From the NCBI GenBank assembly GCA_016189905.1, contig JACPRP010000098.1:1-64000 (forward strand): 64,000 nucleotides of DNA. Direction: 5' to 3'. Shown here one piece after another: positions 2,255 through 57,007 of this stretch (the first letter of the stretch is position 1; the number at the start of each line of letters is the position of its first letter). The notes below the pieces were generated by a model that worked only from the letters and a program-made list of their open reading frames with translations, searched no databases and was not told the DNA's origin. The position numbers were made by a program, and so were the translations under genes. Origin of the DNA: Chloroflexota bacterium (GTDB lineage: Bacteria; Chloroflexota; UBA6077; FW602-bin22; JACPRP01).

Positions 2255-3781
2255 GTGTCCGGGATCAGCGATCTGTTTGTGGAGAACATCGTCTTCATCT
2301 TCTTTATCTATGGCCTTTCTTTCTTCGCACTAGGGTTTACCCTCCTCCTGCAATCGCTGAGCCCTATTCGCCTCGCAGGCTTGAATCATCTTTGGCTCCT
2401 CGCCGTGTTTGGGCTTCTGCACGGTGCGCACGAATGGCTTGTGATGGGCGTGCTGATCGCGTCTTCTATTCCAGGGCGGGGTAATAGCCTCGGCCCGATG
2501 GTCAACCTCGAATTGCCACTCCTGCTTGTTTCTTTCACTGCCCTTTTACAGTTCGGAGGGTCGACGCTAGTCGATAGGCGAAGATGGTGGCGCGGGCTTC
2601 ACGCCGCTTCACTGGTCTTACTGGCTATCATCGTGGCCTTCCTACTGGCGATTGCGTCGGCTGTTGGTGGCGTACGGTCTTCGGCCTGGATTGAAACGGG
2701 CCAAATCGTGGCGCGCTATGGACTCGGCCTGACGGGGTCTCTACTCACCGGATGGGTTTTCTGGCAGATAGGGCGGTCCTGGCCGAGAATGGAAGCGTCG
2801 AGAGTGACCGCGCTCTTCACGGGTGCGGCGATCAGCTTCTTCCTTTACGGCGTACTTGCCGGTCTGGTTGGGCCGCCCGCTCCTTTCTTTCCGGCCTCGA
2901 TCCTCAATACCGTCACGTTTCTCGCCACCTTTGGCATCCCAGTCCAGGCTGTCCGTGCCTTGTGTGCTATAAGCGTTACGTATTTTCTGATCCGTTTGTA
3001 TTTTCTCGAGGCCGCACGATATATGACCACCGCCTACGAAGCGGAGAAGCGAACAGTTAGAGAGTTACAAGATCTGGACCGGCTCAAGAACGAGTTCATC
3101 TCCTTTGTTAGCCACGAGTTTCGCCAGCCGTTGAGCGTGATCAAAGGATGGGCGCAATACCTTCTCAGACCATCGTCGGCCAGCCTGCAGGATGAATCGG
3201 TCAGGCGCGCCCTCGACGCGATCTACAGACAGGCCAGCCGTCTTACGGACCTGGTGGAAAACGTCCTGAACGTGTCGCGCATCGAGACCGGGGCCTTGCC
3301 TTTCAATCCCAGGGCCATCCGCCTGGCCGACATAATCGACGCTGTGGCCGAAGATATGTCCGTCCAGGCGCAGGCACGAGGGATCAAGATCGAGGTCAGG
3401 GTGGACAAGGCTGTCGAGGCGTACGCCGACCCCGACCTCACCAGGCAGATTCTGGTCAATCTGGTCAGCAACGCGATCAAATACACGTTCGAAAACACGA
3501 CGGTGTTCGTGCGGGCCCGCGCTGAGGACGGGGTGGCGCTCGTATCAGTCCGTGACCAGGGGCAGGGCATCCCTCCCGATCAGCTTTCAAGGCTATTTGG
3601 CCGGTTCGTTCGTCTCGCCCGTCCCGGTGAGCTAGGACAGCCTGGCGCCGGACTGGGTCTTTACATCACGAGAAGGCTGGTCGAAATGCAGGGTGGGAAG
3701 ATCTGGGTAGAGAGCGAGCCAGGGAAGGGCAGCACTTTCTATTTCACCTTGCCAGGCGACGGCAGGCTTACGAAGACATAA
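2255..3781 (+). CDS. Membrane sensor histidine kinase
   Basis: A histidine kinase of about 508 residues. The open frame reaches back to 2120, but the GTG at 2255 has GGAGG seven bases upstream and is followed at once by the first membrane segment, so I place the start there. The first 260 residues carry about seven or eight hydrophobic helices, including an HGAHEWL motif seen in a family of polytopic sensor kinases. A short linker leads to the HisKA domain with SHEFRQPL; His is the phosphoacceptor, and the usual Thr after Arg is Gln. A HATPase_c domain follows with N (NLVSNAIKY), G1 (DQGQGIP), F and G2 (GAGLGLYI) boxes. The next regulator gene is the response regulator-PAS protein at 4356, a possible partner; that pairing is inferred from proximity only. 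Confidence 0.9.
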   Translation: MSGISDLFVENIVFIFFIYGLSFFALGFTLLLQSLSPIRLAGLNHLWLLAVFGLLHGAHEWLVMGVLIASSIPGRGNSLGPMVNLELPLLLVSFTALLQFGGSTLVDRRRWWRGLHAASLVLLAIIVAFLLAIASAVGGVRSSAWIETGQIVARYGLGLTGSLLTGWVFWQIGRSWPRMEASRVTALFTGAAISFFLYGVLAGLVGPPAPFFPASILNTVTFLATFGIPVQAVRALCAISVTYFLIRLYFLEAARYMTTAYEAEKRTVRELQDLDRLKNEFISFVSHEFRQPLSVIKGWAQYLLRPSSASLQDESVRRALDAIYRQASRLTDLVENVLNVSRIETGALPFNPRAIRLADIIDAVAEDMSVQAQARGIKIEVRVDKAVEAYADPDLTRQILVNLVSNAIKYTFENTTVFVRARAEDGVALVSVRDQGQGIPPDQLSRLFGRFVRLARPGELGQPGAGLGLYITRRLVEMQGGKIWVESEPGKGSTFYFTLPGDGRLTKT

Positions 3782-6138: not shown

Positions 6139-7056
6139 CTAGCGAGGTGCGGGCCGATCCCAAGGCATTGACTCGACCTTGCTGCAAGGTATGTTGATGA
6201 AGACCCTGCCCGGTTCGGCGAATTCGATGGCGCTCGCCGGAATGTAGAGATCCGTGGTGAAGAGGAACCCCTTCCGAATGTGGATATAGTCGCGTGTCAC
6301 GTCTTCGATGTCGCCGATCTTCTTGTTATCCGAGCAGTAGACCTCCCAGCCTTTCTGGATCTGGTCGTATCTTACACGCTCACCGCCACGGAGTCCAGTT
6401 CCGGTCGCGCTCTCGAATCGCCCCTCGGCGCTATGCCGCTCTACCCTGGGGTGTTCTTTCCTGACGGTCTCGGTGACCCGCTCCTCTTCGACCACCGGGT
6501 GTTTCTTCACCACTAGCTCTTCCTTGACCGTTGGACGCTTCTCGACGTGTACCTCTTCCTCTCGGATGGGCACTCTCATCGTTTCACTTGTCCCGACGGG
6601 GCGCTCGGCGGGCCGCTCGACCCTCTCGCGCTCAACCGAAACTTCTTCGTGCATACGGGGAACACTGGTCGTTCTCTTCTCCTCGGTCACTTCCTTACCG
6701 ATCTCGACCTCGCCGGCTTTTCTCACTCGCTTGCCGACTTCCAGCTCCTCTTCGCGGACCGGCACCCTCATCTCCCCTTCCCTTGCTCCGGTATAGCGGC
6801 CAGCGGGTGGCTCGTTCCAGTGCATTGATTCAATCCGGTCAGACGGGGTGTTGACAAAGACACGTCCTGCCTCGACGCGGCTTACGGCGTCCTTTGGGAT
6901 GTATTGCTCGGTCTTGAAAAGGAAGCCCCTGCCGATGCGTATGTAGTCGGGCGTGACGTCGTCGACTTCGCCGATCTTCCTGTTGTCGGCGGCGAAGACC
7001 TCGGCTCCCTTTCTGATGTCGGTGAATCCCATTTTGTGATATTCGTGACTTGTCAT
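6139..7056 (-). CDS. Double PRC-barrel protein with DUF2382 (YsnF/AvaK-type) centre
   Basis: 305 residues from the ATG at 7056, chosen because GGAGGGAGG lies directly upstream; the frame extends 11 codons further to 7089. Residues 1-80 and about 220-305 are two PRC-barrel domains that resemble each other (ADNRKIGEVDDVTPDYI against SDNKKIGDIEDVTRDYI; both end in a VESMPW/IESMHW strand). The middle is a highly charged DUF2382-type stretch with repeated VPIREEE and VEKRP-like motifs. Such proteins (YsnF, AvaK) are linked to general stress responses in other bacteria; the biochemical role is not known. It is divergent from the GAF-PAS kinase at 7307. A GATAAT-like -10 (minus strand, 7088-7093) could drive it. 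Confidence 0.9.
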   Translation of the reverse strand: MTSHEYHKMGFTDIRKGAEVFAADNRKIGEVDDVTPDYIRIGRGFLFKTEQYIPKDAVSRVEAGRVFVNTPSDRIESMHWNEPPAGRYTGAREGEMRVPVREEELEVGKRVRKAGEVEIGKEVTEEKRTTSVPRMHEEVSVERERVERPAERPVGTSETMRVPIREEEVHVEKRPTVKEELVVKKHPVVEEERVTETVRKEHPRVERHSAEGRFESATGTGLRGGERVRYDQIQKGWEVYCSDNKKIGDIEDVTRDYIHIRKGFLFTTDLYIPASAIEFAEPGRVFINIPCSKVESMPWDRPAPR

Positions 7057-7251
7057 ATTTCCTCCCTCCAACACCGTAACTGGGGACATTATCTCCAGCT
7101 TCAGGTTGTTAAGTTTGAGTCGGCCTTTGAGGCCACATCCTCAGTGCAGCAATCTCCGTGCCCGATAAGGGAGTGTTTATCGCGTTCGGGCTCTACCTTC
7201 TGCGCGTAAGCCGTAATCCGACTGGGCGTGTGTGAGGTTCGTCGTCTCGAA

Positions 7252-7306: not shown

Positions 7307-8914
7307 ATGAGTGCAGGAACAGGGGCAAAAAAGACACCGATGAACGATCGGCAGGCTTACGCCATCCTGGAGGCGGTGAACGCGGCTACCCTGGCTATCG
7401 CCGCGGAGGTATCGCCTGAGCGAGTCCTGCTGACCATCGTAGAACAGGCGCGCAAGCTCGCTAATGCAAGATATGCCGCCCTGGGGATAGGCTGGGACCC
7501 GACGCGCACTTTCCATCCGTGGGTGTTTTCGGGCATGAGCGAGGCTGAGGCTCGTCTCCTGCCACACTTTCCTCGCCCGGTAGGGCTGTTGGGAGCGGTG
7601 GTCCGGGAGGGCCACGCGATTCGGCTGCGTGATATCAGTAAAGACCCTCGCTTCCACGGGTTTCCACCCCACCATCCGAAAATGACCAGTTTTATGGGCG
7701 TGCCCATCCGTTATAAAGATGAGACCATAGGCAATTTGTATCTCACGGAAAAGATTGGCGCCGAGGAGTTCAGCGAAGAGGACGAAAGGGCCGTGAAGAT
7801 GCTGGCGGCCCATGCGGCCATCGCGTACAGGCAGGCGCAGCTTTATGAGCAACTGCAGGTTGAGCGTGCCCGTTTAGAGACCGTCTTCGAAAACTCGCCG
7901 GCGGCTATCGTTTTCGTCGAGGCAACAACCGACCGGGTCTATGAGAACAAAGCGGCGGAGACCTTGTTCGGTCTCCCCCTGCGACCGGACATCGGGCGGC
8001 AGCAGTATCTGGGCCTGATTCGCTCGCCGGATGGGGTGCCCCTGTCGCTTGAGGACCTGCCTTCTTCCCGAGCGCTACGTGGGGAAGTGGTAATAGGGGC
8101 GGAACTGGTCGTACGAAGCGCCGAGGGCCGGGATGTTCCCGTGCTGGTTAACGCTGCTCCTGTGCGAGGGGGCGATGGCACCGTCACCGGCGCCGTGACG
8201 ATCTTGCAGGACATCACCCCGCTCAAGCTGGAACGTTTACGCGAGGAGTTTATCTCTGCCGTGTCCCACGACCTGCGAACGCCTATTGGCGTCATCAGCG
8301 GCTTCGGCGACCTCCTTGGTCGCTGGATGTCAAAGGAAGGGGCGCCAGAAAACGAAAAGCGCGCGGTCGAGGCCATCAAGACTTCTGCCCGAAGGTTGAA
8401 TCGTATGGTCCAGGACCTGCTGGATGCCTCACGCCTAGAGGCTCACCGCCTTACTTTGGAGAAGCAGGCGGTCGATGTGGCAGCTCTGGTGCGGGAAGTG
8501 GTCGACCGTTTGGGCACCGTTTTGGCGCCGCATCCGGTTCGCGTGGAGGCGCCCGAAGCTATGCCTCCCGTGATGGCGGATCCGGGACGCATCGAACAGG
8601 TGTTGACGAATCTGCTGACCAATGCTGCTAAGTACTCCGGACCTGAGTCTGAGATTCTGGTCAGAGCGCAGGCGAGGCCGAAGGAGGTCGTGGTCGCCGT
8701 GACAGACCACGGCCCTGGCATCCCGCCGGAGGATATCCCCAAGCTGTTCACTCGCTTCTACAGAACAGAGGCAGCGCGAGCGGCCAGCCCAGAGGGCCTG
8801 GGCATAGGTCTATACATCAGCAGGGGATTGATCGAGGCGCACGGTGGGCGTATCTGGGTCGAGAGCGAGCCAGGCAAGGGAAGCACTTTTTGCTTCACGT
8901 TGCCGGTCCAGTGA
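7307..8914 (+). CDS. GAF-PAS sensor histidine kinase (soluble)
   Basis: 535 residues with no membrane segment. A GAF domain spans about 30-180 (LTIVEQARKLANARYAALGI at its start, TSFMGVPIRYKDETIGNLYL near its end). A PAS domain spans about 185-305. HisKA follows with SHDLRTPIGVISGF, whose His is the phosphoacceptor. HATPase_c has N box (NLLTNAAKY), G1 (DHGPGIP), and G2 (EGLGIGLYIS and GKGSTF). The start at ATG 7307 has only a weak Shine-Dalgarno; ATG 7340 is an alternative that would remove 11 residues before the GAF domain. Histidine kinases of this build usually sense small ligands or redox state in the cytoplasm. No response regulator is adjacent; the gene is divergent from the PRC-barrel protein. 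Confidence 0.9.
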   Translation: MSAGTGAKKTPMNDRQAYAILEAVNAATLAIAAEVSPERVLLTIVEQARKLANARYAALGIGWDPTRTFHPWVFSGMSEAEARLLPHFPRPVGLLGAVVREGHAIRLRDISKDPRFHGFPPHHPKMTSFMGVPIRYKDETIGNLYLTEKIGAEEFSEEDERAVKMLAAHAAIAYRQAQLYEQLQVERARLETVFENSPAAIVFVEATTDRVYENKAAETLFGLPLRPDIGRQQYLGLIRSPDGVPLSLEDLPSSRALRGEVVIGAELVVRSAEGRDVPVLVNAAPVRGGDGTVTGAVTILQDITPLKLERLREEFISAVSHDLRTPIGVISGFGDLLGRWMSKEGAPENEKRAVEAIKTSARRLNRMVQDLLDASRLEAHRLTLEKQAVDVAALVREVVDRLGTVLAPHPVRVEAPEAMPPVMADPGRIEQVLTNLLTNAAKYSGPESEILVRAQARPKEVVVAVTDHGPGIPPEDIPKLFTRFYRTEAARAASPEGLGIGLYISRGLIEAHGGRIWVESEPGKGSTFCFTLPVQ

Positions 8915-8921
8915 GATGACA

Positions 8922-9683
8922 TCATTGGAGTAGTTCCAGGAAAAGGGCCTCTGTTTCGGCGGAGGGATCGGTGCCAAGCTCCTCGGCCAATAGCCGCCTG
9001 AGATGGTGATAGGTCTTTATTGCCGTAGCCCTGTTCCCACAGGCTATGTGCGCGCGGATCAGGAACCGACAGCTACTTTCTCGATATGGATCAACCTCTA
9101 TCGCCCGCATCGCGGTTTCTATGGCAAGGGTAGGCTGACCCGTGGATAGCCAGATCTGTGAAAGACAATCGAGCGAGCGCAAGAATTGCCTTTCTAAGGT
9201 TCTGCGCTGCGCTTCCACCCATTCTCCGTCATCTCCCGAGAGAAATGGGCGATTCGCGATGGCGTACACCACGCCGGCGTGGCCGAACGCCGCCTGTGGG
9301 CGCCCGAGCCTGAGTTCGCTCTCTGCCTCATCAATCGCGGCGGACGCCGCTTCGAGGTCCACCCACGTGTCGGCTGGGAGCGAAAGCTGATACTGGCCAA
9401 AGCCCCCGATTAGCGAGACGCCGCCGGCCTTCAAGTTGTCCCACGCCAGCAACGTTCGAATCCTGCTGATAAGAGCGCTCAGGGCCGCGCGCCACGCTTG
9501 GGGCGTTTCTTCCGGCCACACCAGTTGAGCTAGCTCCGCGCGTGACACGGGCCGGCCGTGGCAGTAAACGAGGTAGGCAAACGCGCGCCGTCCCTGTCGA
9601 TCTCGAAACTGTCGCTCGGTGACGACCATCTTACTTCCAACCGCTATTCCAACACGCCCCGTAAGGTAAACTCGGATGCTCAT
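8922..9683 (-). CDS. Small AfsR/SARP-type transcriptional activator (winged helix plus BTAD)
   Basis: 253 residues counted from the ATG at 9683. The frame runs further to 9845, but that extension covers the intergenic repeats and reads as noise. Residues 1-95 look like an OmpR-type winged helix (RQGRRAFAYLVYCHGRPVSR, then the LVWPEE wing). Residues about 100-250 form a BTAD helical-repeat domain typical of AfsR/SARP regulators (VDLEAASAAIDEAES, DPYRESSCRFLIRAHIACGN, EELGTDPSAET). Length matches small SARPs without an NTPase module. It is divergent from a DUF1059 gene, and the 85-bp gap between them holds three TGCCAAT-type direct repeats at 11-bp spacing, the operator layout of this family. 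Autoregulation and control of the DUF1059 gene are inferred. Confidence 0.85.
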   Translation of the reverse strand: MSIRVYLTGRVGIAVGSKMVVTERQFRDRQGRRAFAYLVYCHGRPVSRAELAQLVWPEETPQAWRAALSALISRIRTLLAWDNLKAGGVSLIGGFGQYQLSLPADTWVDLEAASAAIDEAESELRLGRPQAAFGHAGVVYAIANRPFLSGDDGEWVEAQRRTLERQFLRSLDCLSQIWLSTGQPTLAIETAMRAIEVDPYRESSCRFLIRAHIACGNRATAIKTYHHLRRLLAEELGTDPSAETEALFLELLQ

Positions 9684-9696
9684 CGCGTCAAAACCC

Positions 9697-9729
9697 TGCC
9701 AATCATTTGCCAATGATCTGCCATGAATC
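9697..9729 (+). promoter_or_regulatory. Three 11-bp-phased direct repeats: candidate SARP operator
   Basis: TGCCAATCATT (9697-9707), TGCCAATGATC (9708-9718) and TGCCATGAATC (9719-9729) follow each other with no gap. SARP activators are known to bind tandem heptamer repeats with 11-bp periodicity just upstream of a -10 element. Here the last repeat ends six bases before a TGn-extended -10 (9733-9741), and the adjacent gene encodes a SARP-type protein. Binding itself is inferred. Confidence 0.7.
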
Positions 9730-9732
9730 GCT

Positions 9733-9741
9733 TGGTAGCAT
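9733..9741 (+). promoter_or_regulatory. Candidate activator-dependent -10 of the DUF1059 gene
   Basis: TGGTAGCAT is a TGn-extended but imperfect -10 (TAGCAT at 9736-9741) immediately after the 11-bp repeats and about 28 bases before the ATG at 9769. A weak -10 with operator repeats in place of a -35 fits a promoter that needs an activator. Confidence 0.45.
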
Positions 9742-9768
9742 ACGTCCATCTTTTTGAGGAGGTGTTTC

Positions 9769-9921
9769 ATGACGCTGGTTATCGCATGCCCTTGCGGCCA
9801 AACGGTCCGGTCTGAAAGTGAGGATGAGCTGGTAAGCCTGGCCACCAGGCACGCGCAAGAGGTTCACAACCAGACCCCCACACGGGAACAGATTCTGTCG
9901 ATGGCGAAGCCTGAGGACTAG
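9769..9921 (+). CDS. DUF1059-type small protein
   Basis: A 50-residue gene too short for most ORF calls. The ATG at 9769 follows a strong GAGGAGGTG at 9756-9764. The product has an N-terminal CPCG motif, a polar middle (ESEDELVSLATRHAQEVH) and TPTREQILSMAKPED at the end. This matches the DUF1059 pattern: a paired-Cys strand, a helix with Glu-Asp-Glu, a conserved His, and a C-terminal REQ helix. Function is unknown. It is the divergent partner of the SARP-type regulator at 8922 and sits behind its proposed operator, so it may be that regulator's main local target. Confidence 0.8.
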   Translation: MTLVIACPCGQTVRSESEDELVSLATRHAQEVHNQTPTREQILSMAKPED

Positions 9922-51925: not shown

Positions 51926-52258
51926 ATGTTTGCACGGGTGATAACTTTCAAAATCAAGCCGGGGACTGCCGATGACTTCCGAAAGCGAACCGAGAAAGAA
52001 GCTGTGCCCTGGCTGCGAGGACACAAAGAATTCCACGGCCTTCATCTGATCAGGATCGGTGACACGGAGATGATGGCATTCGAAATGTGGGAGAGCAAGG
52101 CGTCTGCCGAGGCCGCAAGACAGGAAACCGAGAAGCGCATCCAACAGATTGCTGGAGATTTGCTGGCTGCTCGGCCTACATTCACTGAAGGGGAACAGAT
52201 ATTGCACGCGGCCGGGCAAGAACCTCATCACCGGCCGGGAATGCACACGATGAAGTAA
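51926..52258 (+). CDS. Antibiotic biosynthesis monooxygenase (ABM)-like protein
   Basis: 110 residues; ATG with GAGAGAGG upstream. The pattern is that of a dimeric alpha/beta-barrel ABM domain: strand FARVITFKIKPG, helix ADDFRKRTEKEAVPWLRGHK, strand GLHLIRIGDTEMMAFEMWES, then helix SAEAARQETEKRI. The C-terminus is His-rich (EPHHRPGMH). Such proteins range from monooxygenases to heme-handling or structural proteins; no cofactor site can be read. It is likely co-transcribed with the sigma gene 10 bp upstream. Its stop codon lies in a 19-bp tandem duplication. Confidence 0.8.
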   Translation: MFARVITFKIKPGTADDFRKRTEKEAVPWLRGHKEFHGLHLIRIGDTEMMAFEMWESKASAEAARQETEKRIQQIAGDLLAARPTFTEGEQILHAAGQEPHHRPGMHTMK

Positions 52259-52286
52259 GTTCTTGGTGATGAAGTAAGTTCTTGGT
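52249..52286 (+). repeat. Perfect 19-bp tandem duplication at a stop codon
   Basis: GATGAAGTAAGTTCTTGGT occurs at 52249-52267 and again at 52268-52286. The first copy contains the TAA of the ABM-like gene. The second copy abuts the -35 of the next promoter. Confidence 0.85.
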
Positions 52287-56398: not shown

Positions 56399-57007
56399 AT
56401 GAGATGGTTAACCCTCTTGTTGGTCGGTGTTATGGCCGTCTCCGGCTGCGCCGCGTCAACTTCTACGTCAACTTCTGCGCCGACCTCTGCGTCAACTTCT
56501 GCGCCAGCCTCTAAATCGACGAACGTCGAGCCGCCGGCTAAGCCTGCCAATGAGGCCGCGGTGAGCAGCGCATCAGACCGTCCGGCTCCGTCTATCGTCG
56601 AAGGTATCCGGGTGACGGTTGATGGGCAAACGCTTGACATCCCGGGCGATGTCAAGGTATCTCGCGAACGGGGAAGCGGCGTCGAGATACTCTACATAGG
56701 GAGGAACCCTCGCCCGTCCGCCCTCGTGGGCGGCAACGGCGTGCTGTTGGAGATATCACCCACGTCACAAAAGGATGGCTTCCAGGAGGGAATGTCGGCC
56801 AGTGACGTTGCGGTCGTAACCTTCACAGTGTGGAAGGGTGTCGAGTTCTCTTATGTTTCCACGGGGGCCATATCTGGGCAGCCACTAAAAGGCCTCGTCA
56901 TTTCGCAGAAATCGGGGAAATTGTCGGGGTCCTTTGAGGCCGACCTTAACGGTACGCTGGGCAAGCTTCGAGCGCGTGTGGACTTCGGCGTAGTCTTGCC
57001 CAAGTAG
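56399..57007 (+). CDS. Lipoprotein, unknown function
   Basis: 202 residues; ATG follows AAAGGGAGGATG. The lipobox VSGC lies at about 14-17. Residues 18-60 are a Ser/Thr/Ala/Pro linker with STSTSTSAPTSAS-like repeats. The remainder (about 65-202) is beta-rich: RVTVDGQTLDIPGDVKVSR, VEFSYVSTGAISG, ending GTLGKLRARVDFGVVLPK. No family is recognised. It would sit on the outer face of the membrane. The remnant of a PadR-like gene follows on the same strand. Confidence 0.75.
   Translation: MRWLTLLLVGVMAVSGCAASTSTSTSAPTSASTSAPASKSTNVEPPAKPANEAAVSSASDRPAPSIVEGIRVTVDGQTLDIPGDVKVSRERGSGVEILYIGRNPRPSALVGGNGVLLEISPTSQKDGFQEGMSASDVAVVTFTVWKGVEFSYVSTGAISGQPLKGLVISQKSGKLSGSFEADLNGTLGKLRARVDFGVVLPK

Follow-up and report, generated by a model that had tools for sequence, protein, structure and literature searches.

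In a 64,000-nucleotide stretch of Chloroflexota DNA (contig JACPRP010000098.1, positions 1 to 64,000; the whole stretch is referred to as the window), three contiguous 11-bp direct repeats lie between two divergent genes, one encoding a 253-aa regulator of the SARP type with a BTAD domain and the other a 50-aa DUF1059 protein. With a probability of roughly 0.8, we presume that the small SARP encoded next to these repeats uses them as its operator and would thereby activate the DUF1059 gene or, elsewhere, a short operon with DUF1059 as its last gene. The repeats, their period and their distance to the -10 are conserved in a clade of related regulators, which is linked to DUF1059 genes.

Proposed operator repeats in the window

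The preliminary description, made from the window alone, reported three contiguous 11-bp repeats six bases before a -10 preceded by TGn, between a BTAD regulator and a DUF1059 gene, and we found exactly this arrangement, both flanking genes being confirmed by Pfam. The repeats (9697-9729) end 6 nt before TAGCAT, which itself ends at position 9741 (Table 1). Compared pairwise, they are identical at 9/11, 7/11 and 8/11 positions, and repeat 3 is degenerate, with CCAT instead of CCAA. A search of the DUF1059 promoter for a sigma-70 type promoter with a -35 gave none that was recognisable.

By summed identity, the array is the highest period-11 triple in the window, and in Markov-simulated windows 0.03 equally scoring triples were expected per 64 kb. 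A three-copy pattern with at most one mismatch had one match in the 3.53-Mb genome, at 9697-9729, and a pattern of two copies plus the -10 likewise had a single match, at this promoter. Such exact patterns were used because a sequence-only operator model (R1) was too weak for the divergent window site in a genome-wide search. An array this short, with a degenerate third copy, might be a chance repeat or a low-complexity artefact, but its rarity and its recurrence across the clade, equally placed and spaced, leave this explanation a negligible probability, and the conservation described below refutes it.

Conservation of the proposed operator

Relatives of the regulator were collected by searching 400 genomes of the phylum with a profile and by scanning GTDB contigs; a single-sequence scan of genome contigs gave no relative and was replaced by the alignment-based search, and IMG/VR yielded no relatives. 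They form a clade of about 30 stand-alone regulators of ~250 aa in Chloroflexota, which separates from other BTAD proteins in the profile search (E 1e-126 to 1e-59, next 1e-37).

In an alignment-free comparison of exact 5-mers in 27 non-redundant gaps (<70% alike), a 5-mer was repeated at lag 11 in 21 gaps, compared with 0-4 gaps for each of the other lags between 7 and 30; after dinucleotide shuffling, a mean of 1.5 and a maximum of 5 gaps had such a repeat. When the anchor was placed from the repeats alone and the -10 was defined as a hexamer xANNNT (A at 2, T at 6), 17 of 20 loci had a -10 at +14 nt from the anchor of the last repeat, 5 had one at +17, and the other offsets accounted for 0-3 each. 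Three copies are present in the window and in L068, four in L069 and two at most other loci, and despite these different copy numbers the distance from the last repeat to the -10 is constant across the window, L068 and L069. The preliminary description had made its proposal depend on conservation of the repeats in orthologous gaps, and both lag and offset show that they are conserved there. The 11-bp spacing it proposed for TGCCAAT repeats holds for the clade, but the spelling TGCCAAT is specific to this genome; similarly, the TGn that extends the -10 in the window is not conserved in the clade.

The clade consensus is (T/G/C)CCAA(A/G) in two to four copies, with lineage-specific words such as TGCCAAT, CCAAA, CCAAG, CAAGG and ACAAGG. 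Within a locus the two repeats co-vary (137 matches vs 124.8 +/- 4.3 when re-paired; 19/5000 shuffles as high), and the signal resides in repeat positions 3 and 7. Since the repeats co-vary within loci while the words differ by lineage, selection appears to act on the repeat itself, and common descent alone would not account for it. We also searched seven genomes with an operator model that leaves out the low-scoring promoters of L034 and L057/L058. The best match in each was the promoter between regulator and DUF1059, and matches elsewhere were much weaker or absent (in G246, 30.1 bits against 13.0 for the next site); as these sites belonged to the set from which the model was built, only the lack of other sites is informative. 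In alignment A3 the anchor of L052 was set by hand.

In the gaps of L032, L042 and L049 the regulator-proximal repeat is CCTCCAAA, whose complement TTTGGAGG resembles the Shine-Dalgarno sequence of the regulator; from this likeness, operator and regulator ribosome site may overlap at these loci.

Table 1. Features of the divergent promoter region and its two flanking genes (window coordinates)
Feature	Position	Strand	Remark
Small SARP-type regulator, 253 aa	8922..9683	-	ATG at 9683, stop 8922; from Pfam and predicted fold
Operator repeat 1, TGCCAATCATT	9697-9707	+	Upstream, extra copy; 13 nt upstream of the regulator start codon
Operator repeat 2, TGCCAATGATC	9708-9718	+	Corresponds to the upstream one of the two AfsR direct repeats (about -40 to -30)
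Operator repeat 3, TGCCATGAATC	9719-9729	+	Promoter-proximal; corresponds to the downstream one of the two AfsR direct repeats (about -29 to -19)
Spacer GCTTGG	9730-9735		TGG directly 5' of TAGCAT
-10 TAGCAT, DUF1059 promoter	9736-9741	+	14 nt after anchor C (9722) of the last repeat
Shine-Dalgarno GAGGAGG of the DUF1059 gene	9756..9762	+	From sequence
DUF1059 gene, 50 aa plus stop	9769..9921 (coding 9769-9918)	+	PF06348; presumed target

Linkage to DUF1059 and probable target of the operator

In the tree, all DUF1059-linked regulators fall into one group (support 95/93), which also includes four actinobacterial regulators without DUF1059. Every chloroflexotan member of the clade with enough contig has a divergent DUF1059 gene (L068 instead shows the beginning of a CxCG protein resembling it), either as the first divergent gene or behind one or two others, for example an ABM-like protein or a tautomerase. 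DUF1059 was above the cut-off in 22 of the 23 regulator-bearing genomes, compared with 62/400 overall, and in the 23rd, G021, it lies beside the regulator just under the cut-off. The divergent operon of L068 (L068:1-793) comprises a small membrane protein, a tautomerase and then the start of the CxCG protein at the contig edge, a fragment that resembles DUF1059 and is too short for Pfam; the first impression that L068 lacks DUF1059 was dropped because the operon runs into this start. At L033, L041, L054, L055 and L056 an ABM-like protein of ~100 aa sits between operator and DUF1059, and that of L033 exceeds the Pfam ABM cut-off.

At L046, L047, L048 and L052 an inserted gene parts the regulator from DUF1059, and the repeats are found at the DUF1059 promoter, hundreds of bp from the SARP gene. 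At L033, L054, L055 and L068 small genes precede DUF1059 co-directionally, and the repeats lie 5' of the first. In a set of 39 promoters of DUF1059 genes that have no such regulator, several of them from the same genomes, lag-11 repeats occurred in 4/39 (vs 1-7 at other lags), and one CCAAR pair reached a score >= 9. The choice of DUF1059 as target in the preliminary description is supported by these loci: the repeats stay at the DUF1059 promoter when a gene intervenes and are absent without the regulator. It is very unlikely that the SARP mainly represses its own gene through the repeats by divergent autoregulation, with DUF1059 just a neighbour; the array does lie close to the SARP start codon (13 nt in the window, about 3-4 nt in L053), so that binding must disturb SARP transcription or leader, but at L046, L047, L048 and L052 it is far from the SARP gene and adjoins DUF1059, and the constant distance is that to the DUF1059-side -10.

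The regulator-free promoters also bear on the possibility that the SARP is a neighbour by coincidence and that the repeats are bound by a different protein, for instance an OmpR/PhoB-type response regulator that partners the histidine kinase at 7307-8914. Response regulators of the OmpR/PhoB type likewise use 11-bp direct repeats, and an orphan GAF-PAS histidine kinase adjoins the SARP gene in the window. A site common to AfsR and PhoP has also been described (PMC10972967). However, the repeats track the SARP clade and are missing from DUF1059 promoters without it, even for second copies of DUF1059 within the SARP-bearing genomes, where the same response regulators would be present, and no such kinase was seen among the listed neighbouring ORFs of L032, L033 and L034 (a listing not scanned with Pfam); we therefore consider this explanation unlikely.

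Several observations weigh against a SARP operator at this promoter. The nearest relative of the window in its own family, G001, is without the regulator-DUF1059 pair, so that the assessment of conservation relies on distant orthologs, which share about 35-51% identity. The sister actinobacterial regulators L070, L077, L082 and L083 have neither a DUF1059 neighbour nor the repeat word, and L034 and L057/L058 fit the operator pattern poorly. A model built without the window placed the window operator first in the 64 kb, with a weak score of 8.1 bits (E 0.49) against 7.7 for the runner-up, and did not report it in a whole-genome pass in which 150 of 1398 candidates were scored. Finally, the AfsR DNA-contact residues T88 and K95 are replaced in the regulator (A70, T77).

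At the actinobacterial locus L070, CTAGCG occurs three times with an exact period of 11 bp ahead of a different divergent gene, <=70 bp upstream of the SARP-like gene (reverse strand, about 2940-3003). This array may be a SARP operator that uses another word.

The regulator protein

By its Pfam matches and predicted fold, the 253-aa regulator is a stand-alone SARP, composed of a winged helix-turn-helix (wHTH) and a BTAD domain. The N-terminal OmpR-type winged helix covers about residues 1-101 (Trans_reg_C, 21.8 bits, E 2e-4, under the curated cut-off of 26.2), and the BTAD domain residues 108-252 (PF03704, 84.2 bits, E 1.6e-23); the Pfam scan showed no domain beyond these two and no receiver domain typical of an OmpR/PhoB response regulator. 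In Foldseek, the AlphaFold2 model (pLDDT 96.3) matched over its full length AfsR from the transcription initiation complex (TM 0.85) and EmbR (TM 0.87), and the matches ranking after them covered the TPR-like part of the regulator only. A profile search of solved structures likewise returned EmbR and AfsR (E about 1e-23). The AfsR DNA-contact residues Q48, W74, P79, R92 and R94 are retained as Q30, W56, P61, R74 and R76.

Proposed mechanism

AfsR binds as a side-by-side dimer to two 11-bp repeats at -40 to -19, where it substitutes for the -35 and provides the docking site for sigma region 4 (PMC10936776). With its box at -40 to -19 and the -10 at -12 to -7, the gap between them is 6 nt, the same as that between 9708-9729 and 9736-9741 in the window. 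By analogy, this geometry and the absence of a usable -35 at the DUF1059 promoter, which is expected of an activator-dependent promoter, suggest that the small SARP likely acts as AfsR does. We infer that SARP monomers would sit side by side on consecutive 11-bp direct repeats along one face of the DNA. The two promoter-proximal repeats, whose centre is about 29.5 bp before the likely start (predicted near 9748), would stand in for the -35, and the SARPs on them would position sigma region 4 and the RNA polymerase core at the -10; DUF1059, or elsewhere the short operon that it ends, would thereby be switched on. Many repressors bind at the -35 position (PMC7040171), which the box overlaps, and the SARP could instead repress DUF1059 by promoter blocking; we hold this to be highly improbable, as the repeats and the -10 are arranged as in the AfsR activation complex, the activation domain is part of the fold and the promoter is without a -35 of its own.

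Under activation by the SARP, the upstream repeat (9697-9707) would probably take a cooperative third monomer; operators with three repeats are known, for example that of PimR (PMC5930380). Occupancy of the operator probably also damps expression of the regulator, because the array starts so near its start codon; such feedback is likely in the window and in L053 and would not be universal, since loci of the L046 type have their repeats far off.

Comparison with known systems

The closest counterpart is the SARP domain of AfsR with the afs box of the afsS promoter in Streptomyces coelicolor (PMC10936776), which shares the wHTH-BTAD fold, most DNA-contact residues, two 11-bp direct repeats over the -35 position, the 6 nt to the -10 and a poor -35. 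Unlike AfsR, the regulator is stand-alone with 253 aa, its repeats read (T/G/C)CCAA(A/G) in 2-4 copies, its host belongs to Chloroflexota and its target is DUF1059. The small SARPs ActII-ORF4, DnrI, RedD and PapR2 have the same domain make-up, and their arrays are similarly built from units of a heptamer plus 4 nt in two or three copies, the 3' repeat lying 8 bp from the -10; in the window this distance is 8 nt if counted to the 9th base (AfsR consensus) and 6 nt from the 11-bp unit. Small SARPs are characterised by target promoters whose direct repeats stand 11 or 22 bp apart, and the loci studied here show the 11-bp spacing. In contrast to these small SARPs, which are reported from antibiotic gene clusters of Actinobacteria, the conserved target here is a DUF1059 gene or short operon. 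The PimR operator of Streptomyces natalensis (PMC5930380) consists of three CGGCAAG direct repeats with 4-bp spacers in the target promoter, a word resembling TGCCAA(A/G), but PimR is a SARP-LAL fusion, its operator is off the -35 and its target is a PAS-LuxR regulator. EmbR of Mycobacterium tuberculosis shares the two-domain core and has an extra FHA domain.

SARPs have been described as activators of antibiotic clusters and, in a review, as "exclusively found in actinobacteria" (PMC10972967). This range (Actinobacteria, mostly antibiotic clusters) does not cover the present case, in which the target is DUF1059, sometimes with ABM or tautomerase genes, and the host is a member of Chloroflexota, outside Actinobacteria as the preliminary description had supposed; this is the phylum of G190, whose locus matches "Chloroflexi bacterium CF_18" identically. 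Our literature search found nothing on point on SARPs in Chloroflexi, subscription literature lying outside it. As far as that search extends, the novelty lies in a SARP-operator pair outside Actinobacteria, a dedicated non-antibiotic target and repeat copy numbers that vary at a single conserved promoter; the working principle is already known from Streptomyces.

The regulator, the 11-bp repeat grammar and the -10 register are conserved as a unit in another phylum with a non-antibiotic target. We tentatively suggest, at somewhat less than even odds, that a dedicated SARP-DUF1059 module is widespread in Chloroflexota, its main or only target being a small, probably zinc-binding protein, joined in some lineages by ABM-like or tautomerase genes. 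If true, SARP-type sigma-contacting activation would predate antibiotic clusters, or move more readily than they do, and would serve a basic stress or redox role in Chloroflexota. DUF1059 gains a specific regulatory hypothesis, and the natural set of two, three and four repeats with several words and matched regulators is useful for the DNA-recognition code of SARPs.

The DUF1059 protein

The DUF1059 protein of the window scores 26.9 bits against PF06348, above the curated cut-off of 21.1, and is encoded by the single DUF1059 copy of its genome. Its C-x-C and H-x4-H residues (C7, C9, H28 and H33) are retained across the DUF1059 proteins of the regulator-linked clade. The AlphaFold2 model (pLDDT 96.9) is a compact beta-beta-alpha unit with no significant match in the PDB. 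From the conserved cysteines and histidines we read DUF1059 as probably a small zinc-binding protein, and the ABM-like and tautomerase companion genes hint at chemistry on small reactive molecules.

Other features of the window

The histidine kinase at 7307-8914 has the architecture GAF-PAS-HisKA-HATPase and is convergent with the SARP gene; no response regulator was seen beside it. At 6139-7089 a protein carries a YsnF/AvaK (TIGR02271) domain between two similar segments. Tandem repeats occur at 56453-56513 (a 12/24-bp array) and at 52249-52286 (a perfect 19-bp duplication).
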